Positions 5,230-27,890 of a stretch of DNA of 64,000 nucleotides are shown here, one piece after another. Every line of letters begins with the position of its first letter. Position 1 is the stretch's first letter. The notes below the pieces were generated by a model. It saw only the letters and a program-made list of their open reading frames with translations, searched no databases and was not told where the DNA came from. Both the position numbers and the translations under genes were made by a program. Source of the DNA: Anadara kagoshimensis (lineage: Eukaryota > Mollusca > Bivalvia > Arcoida > Arcidae); contig CM037871.1 in NCBI GenBank assembly GCA_021292105.1, positions 52,683,261-52,747,260 of the forward strand. Reading direction: 5' to 3'.

Positions 5230-6425
5230 TGTCAACAAATTAGTGATATCACTAATCCTGTTTAGTGATAAATACAAAACAGTGTAAGTAGTATACGATG
5301 GATTTATCCTTTTTAAAGGATTTGTACCATTAAAATGGATAAACGGACGAATAAAAAGAAAATGTCAAATTAGACAGATTTTTTCCATTTTGACAGGTTT
5401 TTAAAATTAAATTACTAAAAATTCAGATTTTTTATGGAAATTGTACCAAAATCAAACACTTAATGATAAAAAAGTACCTAAATGGCAACCTTGGACATTA
5501 AAATGTACCAATCTGGACAAATAAATAAATTTGATTACTCGGCCTGCTATTATACTTCAAACTAGTTTAAACTATAGTGATATAGAATAAGTGATATGAC
5601 AAAATTGAAATAATGATATCACCACTCACAAGTGACTTTTCATATCGTACAGTCTGTATTACAGTAAACACTGAATAAAAAGTAAAATGGCACCTCATAT
5701 ATACATAAATGGGTAAAAATGCATATGTCACAAAATATGGTAAATGACTTTTGATAAGATAAACAATTCATTGATTTTCATATCCAAGCTATTTCTAGGT
5801 TTGGAAATGAATCACTTAAGCAATAGGTACTTATGTACAAGGCACTATTAAGATTTATGGACTTGTCAAGGGCCAGAATATGGACCGTCATTTAAATGTG
5901 AACAGTCCATAAATCTTGATAGTGCCTTGTACATAAGTATCTAAGCCTGATCTGTTCAAGCACTGGTACCATGACACAGACATGACACAATTTTCTTTTT
6001 ATGTGTTAAAGATTACATCAAGAACAATGGACAGAAAAGTAGCATGGTAGATGTCAAAACATACAAGCTGATTCACAATACGTATTGCACATGTAACTAT
6101 GTAACTACTCCCAGCTAACAATTACCTGTTTGTGTGTGTGTGTGGGGGGGGGGGGGGGGGGGGGTTGTAACATCAGATAACATTTACATTTACAATGTTG
6201 ATGTTTGTAGTTTGCATAAATCATGATTGTTAAAATAAAAGGACCTAACTCTTTGTGTATCGTCCACTCTGTCCAATGACATGTTGTGTTTGCCTGCTTG
6301 GTCCATACAGGCTAGTAGTTTGTACTATGTGATCTCCTATTACCCAATGGAATTAATCGTTACAAAACTGCTTTGAAATTAACAGCATGATTCTATATTG
6401 CATGGGGAAGTACACTTGTGTTTAG
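5230..6425. other. Intergenic, with a hairpin and a G tract
   Basis: No gene is visible. 5343-5394 resembles 39994-40040 (cggacgaata ... agacagattttttcc), so an old dispersed repeat lies here. A near-perfect inverted repeat has arms 5830-5864 and 5904-5938 with one mismatch. 6131-6164 is a GT run followed by about twenty G. Confidence 0.6.
5830..5938. repeat. Inverted repeat (foldback MITE-like hairpin)
   Basis: The left arm CTTATGTACAAGGCACTATT continues through agatttatggact. The right arm is its complement with one mismatch, and the spacer is about 39 bases. Confidence 0.75.
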
Positions 6426-6428
6426 TAA

Positions 6429-7071
6429 ATATGGTAGCTGTGATACAGGAGTGACACAGATGATAGCTGTGATACAGGAGTGACACAGATGGTAGCTGTG
6501 ATACATGAGTGACAAAGATGGTAGCTGTGATACAGGAGTGACACAGATGGTAGCTGTGATACAGGAGTGACACAGATGGTAGCTGTGATACAGGAGTGAC
6601 ACAGATGGTAGCTGTGATACAGGAGTGACACAGATGGTAGCTGTGATACAGGAGTGACACAGATGGTAGCTGTGATACAGGAGTGACACAGATGGTAGCT
6701 GTGATACAGGAGTGACACAGATGGTAGCTGTGTCACAGGAGTGACACAGATGGTAGCTGTGATACAGGAGTGACACAGATGGTAGCTGTGATACAGAGGT
6801 GACACAGATGGTAGCTGTGATACAGGAGTGACACAGATGGTAGCTGTGATACAGGAGTGACAAAGATGGTAGCTGTGATACAGGACTGACACAGGTGGTA
6901 GCTGTGATACAGGACTGACACAGATGGTAGCTGTGATACAGGAGTGACACAGATGGTAGCTGTGATACAGGAGTGACACAGATGGTAGCTGTAATACAGG
7001 AGTGACACAGATGGTAGCTGTGATACAGGAGTGACACATATGGTAGCTGTGATACAGGAGTGACACAGATA
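6429..7071. repeat. 29-bp tandem repeat, about 22 copies
   Basis: The unit is 29 bases, containing GGTAGCTGTGATACAGGAGTG and ending acacagat. Copies differ by single bases. Because 29 is not a multiple of three, three units return to frame, producing long artificial open frames on the minus strand rich in SLLYHSYHLCHSCITAT. These are not genes. Confidence 0.97.
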
Positions 7072-7620
7072 CCTGGGGCTAGAAAAACACTATATTGTAC
7101 ATTATTATAATAAACATCACAATTATTTTAGTACAATAAAACATAATAAAGCAATTTTTTTCAAAAAGGTTTATAAAGTGTTTTAAAGTCAGGATTCCTA
7201 ATATTTATGCATCAAGACAATCTAGCTACAAAACCGTTGAAACATTCTTATTCCCAGGTACCTGTGTCATTTGATACTATTTATCAGTTTACTGGCTGTT
7301 CTCTCACACGGCAGGTTGTTTTCAGAATCTATCCATTTACCTTTAGATACTGTAACCCCCTCTTTTGAGTATTAAAATATGCAGCTTCCATGTCAAAGTA
7401 AAACTTAGGGAGTTGGGTATGGTGAGATGGGGATGCAGGATATGTACAGTAAAAGGATAGATGGAAATGTCATGTTTTTTAGAAGGTAGAAACTGAAAGG
7501 AGACGTGAGGTTAAACAGTATATTGCTTGTTATGGTTTTGTGTTTTAGTCGACTTGCTGCTGAGTTGAACTGTTCAAGGTGACAGTGATTTCAAGATGAG
7601 TTTGTGTTACTGTATATTAG
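7072..7620. other. Intergenic, no recognisable feature
   Basis: AT-rich sequence without coding potential, splice-linked frames or repeats that I could relate to the rest of the window. Confidence 0.5.
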
Positions 7621-10258: not shown

Positions 10259-10289
10259 AATGTTTATTTTGTGTATTTCATAAAATACG

Positions 10290-13010
10290 TGTATGTATCA
10301 TGTTCTTGGTTTGTATTGTATCGTGTTCTTGGTTTGTATTGTATTTAGTTCTTGGTTTGTATTTATCGTGTTCTTGGTTTGTATTGTATTGTATTCTTGG
10401 TTTGTATTGTATTGTATTCTTGGTTTGTATTGTATTGTATTCTTGGTTTGTATTTATCGTGTTCTTGGTTTGTATTTATCGTGATCTTTGTTTGTATTGT
10501 ATTGTGTTCTTGGTTTGTATTTATCGTGTTCTTTTTGTATTGTATTGTATTCTTGGTTTGTATTTATCGTGTTCTTGGTTTGTATTATCGTGATCTTTGT
10601 TTGTATTGTATTGTGTTCTTGGTTTGTATTATCGTGTTCTTGGTTTGTATTGTATTGTATTCTTGGTTTGTATTTATCGTGTTCTTGGTTTGTATTATCG
10701 TGATCTTTGTTTGTATTGTATTGTGTTCTTGGTTTGTATGTATTTATCGTGTTCTTTGTTTGTAGTGTATTTATCGTGTTCTTGGTTTGTATTGTATATA
10801 GTTCTTGGTTTGTATTGTATTGTGTTCTTCGTTTGTATTGTATTGTATTCTTGGTTTGTATTTATCGTGTGTTCTTGGTTTGTATTATCGTGATCTTTGT
10901 TTGTATTGTATTGTGTTCTTGGTTTGTATTATCGTGTTCTTGGTTTGTATTGTATTGTGGTGTTCTTGGTTTGTATTTATCGTGATCTTTGTTTGTATTG
11001 TATTGTGTTCTTGGTTTGTATTTATCGTGATCTTTGTTTGTATTGTATTGTGTTCTTGGTTTGTATTGTATCGTGTTCTTGGTTTGTATTGTATAGTGTT
11101 CTTGGTTTGTATTTATCGTGATCTTTGTTTGTATTGTATTGTGTTCTTGGTTTGTATTTATCGTGTTCTTTGTTTGTATTGTATTTGTTCTTGGTTTGTA
11201 TTGTATTGTGTTTCTTGGTTTTGTATTGTATTGTATTCTTGGTTTGTATTTATCGTGTTCTTGGTTTGTATTATCGTGATCTTTGTTTGTATTGTATTGG
11301 TGTTCTTGGTTTGTATTTATCGTGATCTTTGTTTGTATTGTATTGTGTTCTTGGTTTGTATTTATCGTGTTCTTTGTTTGTATTGTATTGTGTTCTTGGT
11401 TTGTATTGTATTGTGTTCTTGGTTTGTATTGTATTGTATTCTTGGTTTGTATTTATCGTGTTCTTGGTTTGTATTATCGTGATCTTTGTTTGTATTGTAT
11501 TGTGTTCTTGGTTTGTATTTATCGTGATCTTTGTTTGTATTGTATTGTGTTCTTGGTTTGTATTGTATCGTGTTCTTGGTTTGTATTGTATTGTGTTCTT
11601 GGTTTGTATTTATCGTGATCTTTGTTTGTATTGTATTGTGTTCTTGGTTTGTATTATCGTGTTCTTGGTTTGTATTGTATTGTGTTCTTGGTTTGTATTT
11701 ATCGTGATCTTTGTTTGTATTGTATTGTGTTCTTGGTTTGTATTGTATTGTGTTTTTGGTTTGTATTATCGTGTTCTTGGTTTGTATTGTATTGTGGTGT
11801 TCTTGGTTTGTATTTATCGTGATCTTTGTTTGTATTGTATTGTGTTCTTGGTTTGTATTGTATTGTGTTCTTGGTTTGTATTTATCGTGTTCTTGGTTTG
11901 TATTGTATTGTATTCTTGGTTTGTATTTATCGTGTTCTTGGTTTGTATTATCGTGATCTTTGTTTGTATTGTATTGTGTTTTTGGTTTGTATTTATCGTG
12001 ATCTTTGTTTGTATTGTATTGTGTTCTTGGTTTGTATTGTATTGTGTTCTTGGTTTGTATTTATCGTGTTCTTGGTTTGTATTGTATATAGTTCTTGGTT
12101 TGTATTGTATTGTATTCTTGGTTTGTATTGTATTGTATTCTTGGTTTGTATTTATCGTGTTCTTGGTTTGTATTATCGTGATCTTTGTTTGTATTGTATT
12201 GTGTTCTTGATTTGTATTTATCGTGTTCTTGGTTTGTATTGTATTTAGTTCTTGGTTTGTATTGTATTGTGTTCTTGTTTTGTATTTATCGTGTTCTTGG
12301 TTTGTATAATCGTGATCTTTGTTTGTATCGTAATGTGTTCTTGGTTTGTATTGTATTGTGTTCTTGGTTTGTATTTATCGTGTTCTTGGTTTGTATTGTA
12401 TTGTGTTCTTTGTTTTATCGTATTGTGTTCTTGGTTTGTATTGTGTTCTTGGTTTGTATTTATCGTGTTCTTGGTTTGTATTTATCATGTTCTTGGTTTG
12501 TATTTATCGTGTTCTTGGTTTGTATTTATCATGTTCTTGGTTTGTATTGTGCCCTTTGTATTGCATTGTGATCTTTGTTTGTATTGTATCATGTTCTTGG
12601 TTTGTATTGTATCGTGTTCTTGGTTTGCATTGTATTGTGTTCTTGGCCAGTATTGTATCGTGTTCTTAACGAGTATTGTATCATGTTCTTGGTTTGTATT
12701 GTATTGTGTTTGTATTGAATCGTGTTCTTTGTTTATATTGTATCGTGTTCTGTGTTTGTCCTATCTTGTGTTCTTTGTATTGAATCGTGTTCTTTGTTTG
12801 TATTGTATCGTATTCTTTGTTTGTCTTGCGTTGTGTTCTTTGTATTGTATCGTGTTCTTTGTCTTGTGTTGTGTTCTTTGTATTTTATCGTGTTCTTTGT
12901 TGGTGTTGTGTTATGTTCTTGGTTTATACTGTGTCGTGTTCTTAGTTTGTGTTTTATCGTGTTCTTGCTTTGTATTACATTTTTTTTTGTATTTCGTCGT
13001 ATATTTGTTT
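10290..13010. repeat. Degenerate ~23-bp tandem array
   Basis: Roughly 2.7 kb of GTTCTTGGTTTGTATTGTAT-like units of 20-24 bases with variants (TTTATCGTG, ATCTTTG). The array decays toward its right end. Very long plus-strand frames (rich in CIVLCSWFVLY) arise from the repeat and are not genes. Confidence 0.95.
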
Positions 13011-13356
13011 TATATTGTATTGTGTTCTTTGTATTGTATCTATACGTGTCTTTGGTTTGTATTGTATCGTGGTCTTGGTATAGACTGTATCATGCTCTTC
13101 AAAGTCACTTTAAACACTTTGCTTCTGATTGAAAGCAATCATTATACCAATTTAGCCACCATTTAAAACTAAAGGAGAGAGTATGTGTCTTTAATCTTCC
13201 GCCTTTCTTGATCACTCTTAAATTAAAAAAAAAAGACAAAAATTATATTACTTAATTTCTCGAGACATCTAAAACAAATGACGTACAAAGTCGTGAATGA
13301 TTCATTTAATGTTTAAGAGGTCACCTCTATGGCTCAATGCAATCTAATCACCTGCT
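13011..13356. other. Array edge and intergenic DNA
   Basis: The first ~90 bases are the last decayed units of the array. The rest shows nothing recognisable. Confidence 0.5.
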
Positions 13357-18396: not shown

Positions 18397-20475
18397 ATGG
18401 AAGAGGAAAAACCAGATCAATCTGCCAGAAGATGGCGCTGTTTTTCTCTAATCCTACTGCTTGTTTTAACAATGTGTTTAGCAGCAATGGCGGCCATTAT
18501 TATTTACTACGAAATCAATGTACAAAACGAATCCTACAGCAAATCAAAAGGACTAAAGCATCACCATGGAAACCAAATCTTAAATGAAAGACAAAATAGG
18601 AAATCAATGTTTCATGACATGACAAGTAACGAGATTCAAAACTTGATGCATTATATTTATAAGCAATCAGATTTAAACATTTCAAAACCCGAGAAAGCGG
18701 TGGTCGCCTCAAGTTATCTTTATGTTGCAGAACTACATCTTCCTAACAAAAGTATGGCTTTAACTTACTTAGATTCTGATGGACCAAAACCGCCAAGGGA
18801 GGCTAGACTTGTATTAATAAGGGGAGACAAATCTCCACCATTGGTTGAGGAATATATTGTAGGCCCTTTAAATAATATATCATACCATCGCCTGTATGTT
18901 TCGAAGAATTATCAAAAACCAGCCCCATTTCTTTTTAGACCTTTAACTAAACCGGAAGAAAGAGAAGTCCAGTCTTTGCTTAAACACATAGACAACGTAT
19001 TAAAATATGTTTTGGAGGAAAGTTTTGAAGCAAGCTTTTTTAATTGCGAGCCTCGGTGTTTAACACTAAGCTATTATACACCTGCCTCGCCCGCTGTTAC
19101 CGGTCAAGATGCAAGACGGGTATGGTACTGGGCGCATCAACAAGTGGAGTATTATGTACTTAACCCGGTTGATTTCTTCCTTCAGTTTTACTTAGATGGG
19201 AATGACCCGTCCAAATACAAGATCGAGCAAATAGTATATGCTCATCAAACATTTGATAGTCCGCAAGATCTGGTTAATGCTTTCACTGCCGGAATAGTCC
19301 AAAAATCGTCGATACCCTTTCCAGGGAGAAATAAACCATTTTCTTACTCTCATCTTAGAGGATCAGCCTTTCCTACAAATAATCTCCGCAGTCCGAAGCA
19401 AATTGAGCCAGATGGAAAAAGGTATTCTCTGAACAATAATCATGTTGAGTACATGAGTTGGAGCTTTGATTTTCGAATGTCGTCTGTATCCGGTCCTCAA
19501 CTGTTTGACATCATGTATAAAAACAAAAGGATTATTTATGAATTGGGTCTTCAAGAAATTGCTATATTTCATTCTGGGCATCAACCCTGGATCAAGTTCG
19601 CAGATTACGTCATGAGCGGTTTTCTGATTGGCTTGCATTCCAGGATGTTAGTTTCAGGTTTAGACTGTCCAAACCATGCTTCGTTTGTGAGTAGAACTCA
19701 TATTCAAGAAAGTCCTTCAGTTCAGACAAATTCTTTCTGTGTTTTTGAGCAGAGCACTGGAGTGCCATTGCGTAGACATTATTCATATTCTAAGAAGGAG
19801 GATCAATTTTACACAGGATTAGAGGATATTGTTCTGATACTCCGAACAATTATAACAATTTTACAATATGACTTCATTATTGATTTTACATTCCACCAAA
19901 ATGGCGTCATTGATACCAAGGTAACAACTTCCGGTTACATGCTTCCTACAATCTATACGCCATATGAAGAAAGCTACGGATTTCAAATAAACGAAAAATT
20001 GATTTCAAATATGTTTCAAGAAAATTTACATTTTAAAGTTGACATTGATATTCACGGTACAAAAAACCGGTTTGAGACCCTTGATATTGAACCAAAAGTA
20101 TTGCCAGAATCGGAAGAGCAGACGACTTCATATGAACAACTTAAGTTTGAAAGAAATCTGGTAATGACAGAACTTCAGGGCGTTTATCGTCAAAATTTTA
20201 GTGCTCCAAAATATTTTATTTTTCACAATAACCAATACAAATCTAATTATAATGCCCCAAGAAGTTATCAGATCGTACCGGATGGCGTGTCACATTTGAT
20301 ATCAGACGGAAGCGGTAATGAGCCTTCAGTTCCCTGGATCCGTCACCAGATGGCGGTGTCAAAACATAACGATAATGAAATGAGCAGTAGTTCAATATAC
20401 GCAATGTGGGATGCAAAAGAACCAGTAGTGAATTTTCAAAGTTATCTTGATGACAACGAGAGTATTGTTGATCAG
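18397..20475 (+). CDS. Amine-oxidase-like gene, main exon
   Basis: An acceptor-like ttattgtag lies just before (ending 18391), so a 5' exon is likely. The first in-frame Met is at 18397. The open frame continues past the donor to 20568, but the extra residues after VDQ have no family counterpart and are intron read-through. Confidence 0.88.
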
Positions 20476-21683
20476 GCAAGTGCTAAGCAGGCCGAACTAT
20501 TTGCCCTATCGATGGCAAGTTACTTTTTATTTTGCACAATACAATGGTATAGAGCTAACAAAAAGTAACTTGCCATCATTATTGCAGATAGTTCGGCCTA
20601 TGTTTCATGCAAATCTGAATACTCTTATATTTGCGTTGATTTTGCTTTCGGGTAAGCAATGAAGATTGACATTAGGAGAAAATGAAAATATGTTTCATTG
20701 TTTTTAGATTCAGCATAGCTAAGTTGTATTTGAACTGACTGAACATTACACATATTGACGCAAGAATGAGACAAATACACGCTGATTTCCCCGATTTCGC
20801 TTCTTAGTCCCCCAATGAGATAAAATTCGCACTTTATAATAAGTTATCTTTTCATTTTTCTATTGTCGAACTTGAATTAATTCGTTAAGATAATAACTTG
20901 TTCTCGAAGCGAATATGTGAAGTATTGCTGATGCAACGTTAAACAACATTACGACTATAACCTAACTCCAACCCTAACCCTAACCCAATCTTTACTGACG
21001 CATAAAATATCAATACTCAGTGACACTCTATCTACGAAAGTTTGGTTGATGAAATCACTACGATTAAATGTAATAAAGTTTGAAGTTATAAGAAAATATG
21101 ATGAAGTCGTTGTATTCCATCAAGGTTCTTCAATGCTTTGGTCAAATTTTGATAAAAGATTTCAATGTCGAAACACTCACTTTACAAACATAATTTTAAT
21201 GATAAAATAAAAATCAGTTATCGCTATTCCATAACAATGGAATTAAAAATATACCTTATTTCTTAAACGCAGCAATTAATATTGGACTATGGACGCAGCA
21301 AGTTGTTTTTTATAATTTACATCACTCATTAACAAACAATGTTGCCGTAATACAAATGTAACTTATTATTTTGTCTGTTACAGGATTTGGTTGTTTGGAT
21401 TACCCTCGGGTCTTATCACATTCCACATCTTGAAGATTTCCCGCTGAAAAGTACAACCGGAAAGCAGATGTCTTTTATCGTTCAGCCATTTAATTATTTT
21501 GACGAAAATCCGTCTATGGCGTCTAGAGATGCACTTCGCATATCGGCAAATAAACGAAATAAAGGAGAATACAAGTATACATTTGAAAATTATGGGTTGC
21601 CAAAAACATTTTATTGTGAAACAGAACGGACTAGTAGTTTTATTAAGAATTTGATGAACAGTTCAAATTTGTTTGAACCATAA
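18397..21683 (+). CDS. Copper-amine-oxidase-like membrane protein, probable pseudoenzyme (two exons)
   Basis: Copper amine oxidases convert primary amines to aldehydes using copper and a topaquinone made from a Tyr. Exon 1 is 18397-20475 (693 codons) and exon 2 is 21384-21683 (99 codons plus TAA). They join in phase 0 across a GC-AG intron to give 792 residues, close to vertebrate AOC3 (763). An uncleaved signal anchor at residues ~15-38, preceded by RRWR, predicts a type II membrane protein with the large domain outside. Family landmarks are SGLDCP, SFCVFEQSTGVPLRRHYS, FHQNGVIDTKV, HFKVDIDI and QPFNYFDENPS. The topaquinone Tyr is kept (Y491), but its preceding Asn is Gln490. The catalytic-base Asp aligns with Met406, and the HxH copper pair aligns with Phe540 and Glu542. 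Only the third ligand, His705, remains. Catalysis is therefore unlikely. The frame is otherwise unbroken over 2.4 kb, so the protein is probably maintained for another role. Confidence 0.9.
20476..21383 (+). other. GC-AG intron of the amine-oxidase-like gene
   Basis: The donor is CAG|GCAAGT, the consensus for GC donors, and the acceptor is ctgttacag. Removing 908 bases aligns NESIVDQ with DLVVWITLGSYHIPHLED without gap, as in the family. A long inverted repeat begins 15 bases inside the intron. The rest is AT-rich with no other feature seen. Confidence 0.85.
20491..20597. repeat. Intronic inverted repeat next to the GC donor
   Basis: 20491-20527 (gccgaactatttgccctatc...) and 20560-20597 are complementary over about 37 bases with a few mismatches, separated by about 32 bases. 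It could fold into a stable hairpin in the pre-mRNA. Confidence 0.8.
21384..21683 (+). CDS. Amine-oxidase-like gene, terminal exon
   Basis: It begins DLVVWITLG in phase 0 after the acceptor, contains the remaining copper-ligand candidate His705 in YHIPHLED, and ends at TAA 21681-21683. Polyadenylation signals AATAAA occur at 21696 and 21706. Confidence 0.88.
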   Translation, partial: DLVVWITLGSYHIPHLEDFPLKSTTGKQMSFIVQPFNYFDENPSMASRDALRISANKRNKGEYKYTFENYGLPKTFYCETERTSSFIKNLMNSSNLFEP

Positions 21684-21695
21684 GTTCCATCAAAC

Positions 21696-21711
21696 AATAA
21701 AACACAATAAA
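21696..21711 (+). terminator. Polyadenylation signals of the amine-oxidase-like gene
   Basis: Two AATAAA hexamers start 13 and 23 bases after the stop codon. A very short 3' UTR would be implied. Confidence 0.5.
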
Positions 21712-22780: not shown

Positions 22781-23530
22781 CACCAACATCTCTTTGCTCA
22801 AGACGGAATTCACTTCTCTAAGAGTGGAACTGTAGCATTGGTAAAAATCATCAAAACCTACTTAAATGAAAAGTTTGGTATGACACCATACAGTCAATAT
22901 TCTGACCGAAATGAAGATCATTATCAAGCAAGTAGCTATAGTGGAAGGTCAGGTGGACAACGACAGTGGCAAAGACAGAGAGTACCGAACGGACACCAAA
23001 GGATCATCCGGGCTTCGCAAAATAGAGATAGAGTCAATGTTAATTTCAATTTAAAGTCTGCTTTGAGCGATATTATCAATCAATTGTGACTAAATAATGC
23101 AAAATGTCAAATATTACAGTTTAAGGGTAAATCCTCTTCATTATCAAACTTCTATCCCTGTACTATATTATTTAATGGAATAAGTTTTGAGAGCTCCGAA
23201 CAGTTATATCAATATTTGAAAGCAAATTTTCATAATGAATTTTACTTTTCACAGGTCATACTTTCAGCAGATAATGCATTAGAGGCAAAACGCCTTTCCA
23301 AACATATACACTGTTGTTTATCATGGTATGAATATAAAATATATGTTATGTGGATGATACTTTTATTAAAATATAGTCAAGTACTTGAATTTAGAGATGA
23401 GTTGGAAAAGACAAAACATTTTGTCTTGATGCACAATGTGAAAGACAATTATTGGGGCAGTCACAATGGTGGCCGCAATATGATGGGTAAATTACTGATG
23501 GTACTAAGACGGTTCATATCTATTGTATAA
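22781..23530 (+). pseudogene. SGNH-hydrolase tail joined to NADAR domain, one in-frame stop
   Basis: One plus-strand frame is open from 22781 to 23530 except for TGA at 23087-23089. Its start reads LFAQDGIHFSKSGTVALVK, resembling the C-terminal D-x-x-H block of SGNH/GDSL hydrolases, where Asp and His are catalytic. After a Q/R/S-rich linker and the stop comes a NADAR (YbiA-like) domain: LSNFYP, ISFESSEQLYQYLKA, NALEAKRLSKHI, KYSQVLEFRDELEKT, DNYWGSHNGGRNMMGKLLMVLR. NADAR proteins are known as N-glycosidases acting on riboflavin intermediates or as ADP-ribosylguanine hydrolases. The SGNH core is missing upstream, apparently behind a frameshift (DNTNIS near 22775 in another frame). I infer a decayed transposon-type ORF. 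Whether it belonged to the LINE at 24247 is unknown, since that LINE has its own flanking duplication. Confidence 0.7.
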
Positions 23531-24237: not shown

Positions 24238-24425
24238 AAGTAAACGAAATTTATTAATATTTAGTAAAAAAAAAAAAAATAAAAAATAAATAAATAAATA
24301 AATAATAAATAAATTTTAAAAAAGCTAAAAAGTTATACATTGCACACACAAGATGAAAGAAATAAATACATTCAATTATTTGACTGTGTACCTCTATGAT
24401 GATTACTTATTTACAATTTTGAACT

Positions 24426-27400
24426 ATGTTGAAAATAAGTTGTTGGAATATTGCAGGTTATCGGGAAGATAAACTTGAGAATATTGTAAATAATTATGAC
24501 ATATTTTGTTTAGTTGAAACATGGACTCATGGTGAGTCATCCATAGACCTGCCAAAATATAGACATTTTCATATGCCGGGCAAAAAGAAAGCTAAAAAGG
24601 GAAGACGCTCAGGTGGTATTATTCTGTATTATCATGACAGAATTCATCTTGGAATTTCACTTATAGCAAAGAAAAGTTATGGATTATGGGTTAAATTGCA
24701 TAGAGAATTCTTCGACTTAGAATCTGATATTTATATAGCGTTTTTATACATAAAACCAAGAACATCGAATAATGAAAACGAAAATGATTTTATTAACTTG
24801 AGTAGAGATATTTTAGCTTATTCCAATAATGGCAAGATTTTGCTTGCAGGAGACTTTAACAGTAGAACAGGAACTGAATTAGATTTTGTTGAAAATGATG
24901 GTGGTTTTCCTGGATCTAACCAACACCTTCTACCTGATACATATACATATGATAAGCAAATAAAGAGAAATAACAGAGATAAAATCACTAATTTGCAAGG
25001 AAAATTAATGTTAGAAATTTGCATTGAAGCAGGTTTACGGATCTTGAATGGCAGGTATATGGGCGACTCACAGGGTAATTTTACTTATTTTGATAACAAA
25101 CTTGGATGCAGTGTCGTAGATTACATGATTATATCTGAATCAGCACTTGATTATGTTAAATACTTTAATGTTATGTCACCTAATGAATTGTCAGACCATT
25201 GTATAATTAGAGTTGGATTAGATATAAAAGTGCCTTCATATGAGAATGAAGACGAATTTAAAAATGCTCAGTATTGGCCTGGAAACTTTGTGTTTGATAG
25301 TAGTAATGAACAAGAATATATTCAATCCTTGTCATCAGACTCGCACATGGACAAACTCTCCAAATTTATGTCAGAGCTAGATACATGCTCCTCAATAGAT
25401 ATAAATAAATACACAAAAATTCTTACTAATATTATCACAGACTCTGCTAACTTGAGTGTTAAGTTTAAAGCAAATAGAAAATCAAAGAAACATAAAAAGA
25501 AAAAGAAAGAATGGTTTAATGGAAACTGCTTTTTAATACAAAAAGAAATTAGAAGATTAGGCAAACTGGTTCAAAAATATCCAAATAACCACACTATAAA
25601 ATTAAATTTTAACAAAACAAAAAAAGAATATAAAAAATTATGCAAAAAGTTAAAAACAGAATTTCTACAAAACCTATTTAACCAACTCAAAGATACTGAT
25701 ATAAAATATCCTTCTGTTTTCTGGAAGGAAATTAACAAAATTAAGAAAAAGCAAAACAGCCAATATAACCCATTAACAATTAAAACTTGGACAGAACATT
25801 TTGAAAATCTTTTAACAGAAACTGACCAACAAAATTTACCTTCAGACATTAAAAATGAGGCTAAAAATATGTTAAATAATGATGCAGAGATATTGAACAG
25901 TCCTATAACTTGTCAAGAAGTTAAAAAATGTCTGAAAAGTTTAAAAAACTCAAAAAGCCCAGGCATGGATCTGGTTTGTAATGAATTTTTAAAATTTGGT
26001 ACAAATATTTTAACATTACCTCTTGTTAAACTTTTTAACAAGATTTTGGACACTGGTAATTTTCCTATAGATTGGAATATATCAATACTGTCAGTTTTAT
26101 ATAAAAATGGATCACCTTATGATTGCAACAATTATAGGGGAATAAGTGTGAGTAGTTGTTTGGGTAAAGTCTTTACAAAAATCTTACAAATGCGAATATC
26201 TGAATATTTAGATAACAACCACTTAATAGAAGACAACCAAGCAGGGTTTAGGAAAGATTATAGAACTACAGATCAAATATTTATTTTCAAAACACTTTTA
26301 AACAAATATCTTCATAAGATAAAAAAACCCATTTTTACTTGCTTTGTAGATTTTTCCAAAGCATTTGACTCAGTTTGGAGAAACGCACTCTTTTACAAAA
26401 TGCAAAGTTTAGGTATCAAAGGTAAAATCCACAATGTCATACACAGCATGTACACAAATACTCATGTGTGTATCAGAAAGGAAAATTATATATCACAACC
26501 ATTTGAAACAACAAAAGGAGTGAAACAGGGGGACAGTCTTAGTCCAACTTTATTTAATATTTTTCTTCATGATATGAACACATGTTTTGAAAATACCTAT
26601 CATACATGTCCTTTAATGCTAGAGGATCATAAAATAAATCATCTATTGTTTGCAGATGATCTATTACTCATGTCAGAAAGTGAATCAGGATTACAAAATT
26701 GTTTGGATAAATTATCAAACTATTGTGAAACATGGAAATTGAATATAAATATTCGGAAAACAAAAATAATGATTTTTAGTGTGAGAAAAACAGACCTTAA
26801 TCAATATAATTTTCAATTTAATAATTCAATGATTGATGTAGTTGAAAAATATAAATATTTGGGCATTGTGTTTTCTTCCAATGGAAGGTTGACACATGCA
26901 GTAAATGACTTATACAATAAGGGAATAAAATCTTTTTTCTCCTTAAGAAACAAGTTCTCAAACTTTGAAAATGTCCCTTTGAATACTTGTACTAAGATGT
27001 TTGATTCTTTAATAAAACCAATTATTTTATATGGATGTGAAATCTGGTTAAGTGATATAAACATTAACCTAAATAGAACAGATACTCTCCCTATTGAGAA
27101 ATTACAACACAAAATGTTAAAATGTATTCTTGGAGTTAAAAGACAATCAACTAACCTAGCATGTAGACTTGAATGTGGATCTCAACCAGCCATCATTTCT
27201 GCTTTAACATTGATGTATAAATATTTCACTAGATTAATCCAGCTTGATAATAACAGACTTTTATATAGTGCATTTATTACTGATCAAAATTTATTTGAAG
27301 AAAAATCTAAGAGTTGGTTTTCAACACTTTATAATATATTTAAACAAATTAAATTAGATTCTCAAAAGGCAAGTGAAGGTCGGATTTCAACTGAGGATTT

Positions 27401-27890
27401 TAAAACATCTTTATCAAATTATATAACATCCAATACAAAAACATTTTTGAATAAAATTAAAACTGGGAAAATTGAAAGTAAACTTGAATTATTTAGCAAC
27501 TTACATAATGAAAATATTCCATATTATGTGTCACTTCCAATCTCAAAAAACATCAGATCAAGCATTGCAGCTTTTAGAATAAGTTCACATTCACTTGCCA
27601 TAGAGAGAGGAAGATATACAAAACCAAAAACACCACGTGATGAAAGAATCTGCAAAAACTGTCAAGAAGTTGAAGACGAAATTCACTTTATTTTAAAATG
27701 CCCTATATATAGCTCACTTCGAGTAAACTTATTTACCTCATATAATATTTTAGAAAATTCTTTGGTAAAAAATATTCCTTTAGAGTTTATTAAAAGGGTT
27801 TTAAATCCAAATAATTTGAAAGAATGTTTAGCTTTACAAAAATACTTAAAGCTAGCATTAGATATTAGAGAGGGAAAGACACAGGGCTGA
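24426..27890 (+). CDS. LINE ORF2: APE endonuclease and reverse transcriptase, intact
   Basis: 1154 codons without a stop. Residues 1-260 are an APE-type endonuclease: SCWNIAGY (Asn8), CLVETW (Glu31), AGDFNSRTG (Asp143, Asn145) and SDHCII (Asp257, His258). The reverse transcriptase follows: LKNSKSPGMD near 520, NNYRGISVSSCLGKVFTK, QAGFRKDYRTTDQ, motif A FVDFSKAFDSVW (Asp642), GVKQGDSLSPTLFN, catalytic FADD at 742-745, and KYLGIVFSSNG. The C-terminal region has a Cys-Cys-His-Cys cluster (C1076, C1079, H1087, C1092 in ICKNCQEVEDEIHFILKC), typical of this LINE group. All catalytic residues are present, so the copy is young or recently active. It makes and cuts its own DNA target and reverse-transcribes its RNA there. 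The ATG at 24426 precedes the first endonuclease strand directly and is the natural start. Confidence 0.93.
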   Translation: MLKISCWNIAGYREDKLENIVNNYDIFCLVETWTHGESSIDLPKYRHFHMPGKKKAKKGRRSGGIILYYHDRIHLGISLIAKKSYGLWVKLHREFFDLESDIYIAFLYIKPRTSNNENENDFINLSRDILAYSNNGKILLAGDFNSRTGTELDFVENDGGFPGSNQHLLPDTYTYDKQIKRNNRDKITNLQGKLMLEICIEAGLRILNGRYMGDSQGNFTYFDNKLGCSVVDYMIISESALDYVKYFNVMSPNELSDHCIIRVGLDIKVPSYENEDEFKNAQYWPGNFVFDSSNEQEYIQSLSSDSHMDKLSKFMSELDTCSSIDINKYTKILTNIITDSANLSVKFKANRKSKKHKKKKKEWFNGNCFLIQKEIRRLGKLVQKYPNNHTIKLNFNKTKKEYKKLCKKLKTEFLQNLFNQLKDTDIKYPSVFWKEINKIKKKQNSQYNPLTIKTWTEHFENLLTETDQQNLPSDIKNEAKNMLNNDAEILNSPITCQEVKKCLKSLKNSKSPGMDLVCNEFLKFGTNILTLPLVKLFNKILDTGNFPIDWNISILSVLYKNGSPYDCNNYRGISVSSCLGKVFTKILQMRISEYLDNNHLIEDNQAGFRKDYRTTDQIFIFKTLLNKYLHKIKKPIFTCFVDFSKAFDSVWRNALFYKMQSLGIKGKIHNVIHSMYTNTHVCIRKENYISQPFETTKGVKQGDSLSPTLFNIFLHDMNTCFENTYHTCPLMLEDHKINHLLFADDLLLMSESESGLQNCLDKLSNYCETWKLNINIRKTKIMIFSVRKTDLNQYNFQFNNSMIDVVEKYKYLGIVFSSNGRLTHAVNDLYNKGIKSFFSLRNKFSNFENVPLNTCTKMFDSLIKPIILYGCEIWLSDININLNRTDTLPIEKLQHKMLKCILGVKRQSTNLACRLECGSQPAIISALTLMYKYFTRLIQLDNNRLLYSAFITDQNLFEEKSKSWFSTLYNIFKQIKLDSQKASEGRISTEDFKTSLSNYITSNTKTFLNKIKTGKIESKLELFSNLHNENIPYYVSLPISKNIRSSIAAFRISSHSLAIERGRYTKPKTPRDERICKNCQEVEDEIHFILKCPIYSSLRVNLFTSYNILENSLVKNIPLEFIKRVLNPNNLKECLALQKYLKLALDIREGKTQG

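Follow-up and report, generated by a model that had tools for sequence, protein, structure and literature searches.

The gene at positions 18397-21683 of the window (the whole 64,000-nucleotide stretch of Anadara kagoshimensis DNA analyzed here, C15:52683261-52747260) appears to encode a retained pseudoenzyme of the animal copper amine oxidase (CuAO) family, and we put at about 0.8 the probability that it is such a protein, with copper at the usual site, the usual formation of topaquinone (TPQ) and the catalytic base all lost. Its product most likely serves some function other than amine oxidation.

The 792-residue frame and the join of 20475 to 21384 proposed by the sequence-only reading were borne out by the sequence, because the two exons (Table 1) give a 792-amino acid product with no internal stop and both match the Pfam Cu_amine_oxid domain (PF01179), exon 1 with an E value of 6.5e-78 and exon 2 with one of 4.5e-13. 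Exon 1 also matches the Pfam N2 domain (PF02727; E 1.2e-8), and by these domain matches the protein is a homologue of the CuAO superfamily. The intron donor is GC (positions 20476-20481), GT-AG being found at the same codon in five spliced paralogue models (P5, P20, P9, P21 and P10), and CAG/GCAAGT is the usual form of functional GC donors. Three AATAAA motifs lie no more than 45 bases beyond the stop. At the N terminus, a signal-anchor helix is predicted at about residues 12-42, with the hydropathy maximum (3.04) at residues 18-36 directly after a basic RRWR at residues 11-14, and a second, weaker stretch above 1.6 (residues 477-497) lies inside the catalytic domain. The protein is thus a predicted type II membrane protein, in agreement with the membrane-anchored CuAO described earlier and likewise with AOC3, which is type II membrane-anchored. 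It carries seven N-glycosylation sequons. A fold model of exon 1 only, built with 30 bacterial relatives, reached a mean pLDDT of 63.6 and a pTM of 0.66, with pLDDT below 50 at residues 194-317 and 397-408, and was used for the overall fold alone; a Foldseek search with it gave AOC3 and AOC1 as the best matches by E value (top E 7.7e-34), with TM values of only 0.57-0.61.

Table 1. Features of the CuAO-like gene, in positions of the window
Feature	Positions	Strand	Description and basis
Exon 1	18397-20475	+	693 codons from ATG; encodes the cytoplasmic tail, the anchor, the stem and the larger part of the ectodomain, with the bulk of the D4 catalytic domain; supported by the open frame, Pfam (PF01179, PF02727), hydropathy and PDB alignment
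His392 (CAT)	19570-19572	+	Opposite AOC3 Tyr372; paralogue alignment and codon readout
Met406 (ATG)	19612-19614	+	Opposite the catalytic Asp (AOC3 Asp386)
Cys424	19666-19668	+	Conserved Cys pair, kept
Cys448	19738-19740	+	Conserved Cys pair, kept
Gln490 (CAA)	19864-19866	+	Aligned with the TPQ-motif Asn
Tyr491 (TAT)	19867-19869	+	TPQ precursor Tyr, kept
Phe540-Gln541-Glu542	20014-20022	+	Opposite the copper His-x-His; Phe540 TTT, Glu542 GAA
Phase-0 intron	20476-21383	+	GC-AG; exon 1 ends GATCAG/GCAAGT (donor CAG/GCAAGT), exon 2 preceded by TTACAG/GAT
Exon 2	21384-21683	+	99 codons and stop; C-terminal part carrying His705; Pfam match, PDB alignment
His705 (CAC)	21417-21419	+	Third copper ligand position, kept
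Candidate polyadenylation signal	21696-21701	+	First of three AATAAA motifs past the stop

Elsewhere in the window, a 1155-amino acid open frame with Exo_endo_phos and RVT_1 domains (24423-27887) marks a non-LTR retrotransposon, and just upstream of it lies an open frame with a NADAR domain (23090-23527; E 7e-18), which perhaps belongs to a mobile element. Repetitive sequence at 6382-7127 and 10261-13163 is open over long stretches in several frames, as is typical of minisatellite arrays and not of genes.

Residues of the active site were assigned by aligning the protein with human AOC1 and AOC3 in phmmer and, in addition, with 11 CuAO rows from the same genome, the roles of AOC3 Asp386, His520, His522, His684, Tyr372 and Asn470 being taken from the available text of PMC5794975. 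His705 is the only one of the three copper His to be kept, with Phe540 and Glu542 at the other two positions; the catalytic Asp of active CuAOs is replaced by Met406 in the alignments to AOC1/AOC3 and to the paralogues; and the TPQ motif T-x-x-N-Y-D/E reads T-I-L-Q-Y-D, with Asp492 kept and Phe493 (TTC) in place of a conserved Tyr. The replacements at 406, 490, 540 and 542 and the retention of Tyr491 and His705 had all been called in the sequence-only reading and held in the AOC1/AOC3 and 11-row alignment, and the Cys pair that it described as intact is indeed kept. Two features go beyond that reading, namely His392 at the Tyr372 position and the GC-AG intron. The alignment blocks around residues 406, 490, 540-542 and 705 were free of gaps against AOC1 and AOC3 in phmmer, and the same residue pairing was obtained against the 11 same-genome rows, save for the Asp of P2, which lay two columns off and was in register in another alignment. 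A scan of the whole protein found no other His-x-His in the domain, the sole HHH (residues 55-57) lying in the stem outside it. Misalignment was therefore ruled out as the source of the substitutions, and the outcome that had been named as counting against the earlier proposal, a His-x-His and a catalytic Asp located elsewhere, was not found in the alignment to AOC1 and AOC3.

According to the available text of PMC3382800, copper in CuAOs is bound by three strictly conserved His, its binding starts TPQ biogenesis, and Glu was the sole active variant among 12 replacements of the catalytic Asp, with kcat lowered by a factor of 6.4 x 10^4. From this family biochemistry, loss of the base should by itself abolish turnover, and, with two ligands gone, neither normal copper binding nor TPQ is to be expected, which suggests that the window protein cannot be an ordinary CuAO and performs no amine oxidation.

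Matches over the 1.115-Gb genome (36 contigs) numbered 32 and fell into 17 CuAO loci, the window gene included. The catalytic domain was readable in 16 of the 17, the remaining locus (L017, C15 19.70 Mb) having exon 2 only with a masked stretch upstream, and the Asp, N-Y and His-x-His were kept in 14 of these 16, the exceptions being the window gene and P9. An open frame together with intact catalytic residues was found in P1, P2, P3, P5, P10 and P21. A survey of 264 animal CuAOs (53 from 15 invertebrates) gives, in its available text, typically 3-4 copies per animal species (PMC12058724), and the 17 loci found here exceed this usual number, with several near-identical pairs and eight loci with broken frames. 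No near copy of the window gene was found elsewhere in the genome: the match that follows it in score has 43% identity across residues 67-693, P19 has a shorter piece at 48%, and identity to the paralogues other than P2 and P3 is 33-44%.

The eight loci whose frames are broken inside the gene (L011, L012, L013, L014, L015, L018, L019 and L020, the last being P20, with anchor and ectodomain in different frames) all keep the catalytic residues in their pieces. They are not independent of one another, since L012 is paired with L014 and L015 with L019, and L011, L018, L013 and L020 nearly duplicate P1, P10, P21 and P5, respectively. At C15 37.69-37.75 Mb and 38.40-38.48 Mb, P10, P20 and L014 are mirrored near-identically by L018, P5 and L012, with order and orientation both reversed, as would result from an inverted segmental duplication or from an artefact of assembly. 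L012 and L014 have an apparently common frameshift between the TPQ and His-x-His blocks, with the catalytic residues kept, and appear to be two copies of one pseudogene whose type is otherwise active.

A prokaryotic baseline was obtained from a scan led by an Arthrobacter protein, which gave 489 relatives, the best 80 being kept; an earlier scan of prokaryotes with the animal alignment had found no relatives. The Asp, both His and the Tyr372 equivalent are kept in 78 of the 78 readable rows among these 80 (L094 and L108 were unreadable in frame picking), and the third His in all 76 of those 80 that have this column, which is absent from L058 and L059. The best 80 are those most like an intact query, so this baseline leans towards intact sites, and the counts for the Asn and the TPQ Tyr are biased by selection because one of the two search patterns includes N-Y. 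Across 82 rows (window gene, P9, L058, L059, L062, L094 and L108 dropped), the window protein is changed at 4 of 6 invariant active-site columns versus 2 of 14 other invariant columns (Fisher p 0.037), the catalytic Asp lying outside those 20 columns.

A rival reading is a decaying pseudogene whose frame is intact by chance, and some features of the gene would suit it: the GC in place of GT at the splice donor could be early decay, the gene lies away from the clusters of paralogues and shares its window with reverse-transcriptase frames, and its share of kept columns is the lowest in one of two counts. We nevertheless regard such decay as quite improbable, and a young pseudogene as unlikely, because the frame is open, structural residues are kept, omega = 1 was rejected on the window branch and the joint neutral probability is very small. 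The branch codon model covered 702 codons in 8 genes, with joined pieces of broken genes (P12 and P19) among the backgrounds. Fixing omega at 1 on the terminal branch of the window gene was worse than leaving it free (2dlnL 42 on the favoured tree T1 and 54 on the alternative T2), and omega on this branch did not differ from the background (p 0.34 and 0.44); its value of 0.03 is qualitative only, with synonymous sites saturated and several branch lengths at the bound of 30. The constraint is long-term and averaged over the branch, and a very recent release is compatible with the test. As to the neutral calculation, at least nine codon changes are needed (three from Asp to ATG and two each from Asn to CAA, His to TTT and His to GAA), 4.85% of substitutions create a stop under the neutral model, and the chance that a 792-codon frame is still open falls to 5% at about 0.026 neutral changes per site. 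For nine or more hits in the 12 bases with no stop in the frame, the highest joint neutral probability was 8e-11, and 6e-14 when indels at an assumed rate were added, the four codons having been picked after sight and being family-defining sites. Active-site changes with an open frame are thus poorly explained by neutrality.

The conservation counts were in line with this result. With ten rows, the window protein departs at 9 of 58 columns invariant in the nine others (P10 at 8 of 57, P3 at 9 of 58), and five of these nine departures (N490, Y493, H540, H542 and F544) fall within residues 490-544. Without P2 and P3 (eight rows) it keeps 90 of 106 columns (84.9%), the fewest of all, and 11 of its 16 departures are outside 490-544. 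When those five columns were removed from the eight-row count, it was changed at 11 of 101, compared with 13 of 103 in P10 and 11 of 101 in P21 and in P1, so that outside the active site it appears about as conserved as the most diverged intact relatives. Kept residues include D549, D551, D694 and L695, which we take to be the Ca-site positions of AOC3, and the C-terminal Cys C771, common to 9 of the 10 rows compared. The eight frame-broken paralogue loci present the reverse pattern, broken frames with intact catalytic residues, which speaks against decay of the window gene; several of them are recent near-copies, and the contrast is supportive only, as these loci may not have existed long enough for residues to be lost, and errors of assembly may account for some of the breaks. 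Taken together, catalytic residues have been lost and the rest of the protein appears to have been under purifying selection, within the limits of the branch test, as expected of a pseudoenzyme. The core of the earlier proposal of a retained pseudoenzyme is supported by the branch test, the neutral calculation, the structural residues and, more weakly, the contrast with the broken paralogues.

In the tree, the window protein adjoins the group P5/P20, P9, P12 and P19/P15 (support 99/98, and 98/97 in a repeat), and its identity of about 40-44% to this group indicates that the duplication is old. P9 (L009, G000:C15:40628000-40634000, at 40.63 Mb on the minus strand) has a frame open over the ectodomain. 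As in the window protein, its catalytic Asp is lost (here to Gly, GGG) and the Tyr372 position is His; unlike in the window protein, NYDY and all three copper His are intact. No in-frame ATG was found before the anchor of P9 in that exon and an acceptor-like site precedes the frame, an upstream first exon being possible. A shared ancestral loss was considered and judged the less likely course. A clade of the window gene and P9 was not rejected in a first test (p-AU 0.052), but the p-AU was 0.011 in a second one, in which the trait columns and the N terminus were left out and rows P2, P3, P15 and P20 dropped, and the codon model prefers the tree without this clade by 23 lnL units. P9 and the window gene are thus probably not sisters, so the two losses look independent and this one genome would hold two inactivated members of the family. 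P9 would represent a less advanced inactivation, and its protein could still form TPQ and possibly act as a Schiff-base trap.

With regard to its present role, the window protein may be a CuAO-fold ectodomain at the cell surface, probably dimeric, that binds a ligand without turnover through the old substrate funnel or the outer surface; we hold this tentatively, at a little less than an even chance. The parallel with the non-catalytic role of AOC3, drawn in the sequence-only reading for an adhesion or ligand-binding ectodomain, is weaker than it sounds, because part of the in vivo function of AOC3 needs catalysis: in the available text of PMC6306676, mice whose VAP-1 is enzymatically inactive have milder TNF-alpha peritonitis and reduced fibrosis of the liver and lung, thioglycollate peritonitis being unaffected. 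The main rival is a regulatory dimer partner, a dead subunit that would pair with active paralogues and lower or tune their activity. CuAOs form dimers in which each subunit extends arms into the active site of the other, and cross-talk has been described for the family; moreover, the same genome holds paralogues whose frames are open and whose catalytic residues are intact (listed above), C771 is shared as noted, and in another family a catalytically dead paralogue activates its partner (PMC3663545, available text). However, identity of only 33-44% to the paralogues other than P2 and P3 makes mixed dimers less likely, and we consider this role doubtful.

A pocket with changed chemistry, in which Tyr491, His705, Glu542 and His392 would bind another metal or ligand and support another reaction, is in agreement with the location of these four residues at former active-site positions in the alignments and with the apparent constraint on the whole gene. 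Nevertheless, Met, Phe and Gln coordinate metals poorly, the confidence of the fold model is below 50 at residues 397-408, and Tyr372 lines the substrate cavity in AOC3 docking (PMC5794975, available text), so that we hold it to be highly improbable. Surface binding without turnover is the role that we favor.

Kinases and proteases include well-known pseudoenzymes. Human AOC3/VAP-1 and AOC1/diamine oxidase (PDB 1us1 and 3hi7) resemble the window protein in sequence, fold and Cys pair, and differ in having the catalytic Asp, the Asn of the TPQ motif, the two copper His and the Tyr372 that are replaced in it. Among the fold matches are Arthrobacter globiformis CuAO mutants, which are, as far as their available descriptions go, altered at the catalytic base (2cwt and 2yx9), the copper-ligand His592 (1ui8) or the Asn (Asn381Ala; 7wir); in those solved structures the changes are engineered, whereas in the window protein they are natural and combined. 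The plant CuAO clade I (zeta) is likewise reported to be motif-deficient, being without T/S-x-x-N-Y-D, but it belongs to the plant lineage, and loss of the copper His or catalytic Asp is not among the features reported in the available text, which also makes no mention of an inactive animal CuAO among the 264 surveyed (PMC12058724). No description of a CuAO pseudoenzyme was found in the literature searched, which leaves out most subscription papers, and among the matches listed for mollusc and bivalve CuAO expansions none pointed to inactive members in its title or the start of its abstract. In a bivalve mantle transcriptome, the available part of the biomineralization table holds seven unigenes annotated as 'putative amine oxidase [copper-containing]' (PMC8933548).

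It is conceivable, if rather unlikely, that CuAOs have become non-catalytic surface proteins more than once in this animal lineage, in the window protein and, independently, in L009, which is possibly an amine trap that forms the Schiff base but does not turn it over. Both would then serve the active paralogues as partners that sense amines or regulate dimers. A natural protein of this fold in which the base, the Asn and two of the copper ligands are missing would offer a way to separate the binding or scaffold functions of the fold from the production of H2O2.
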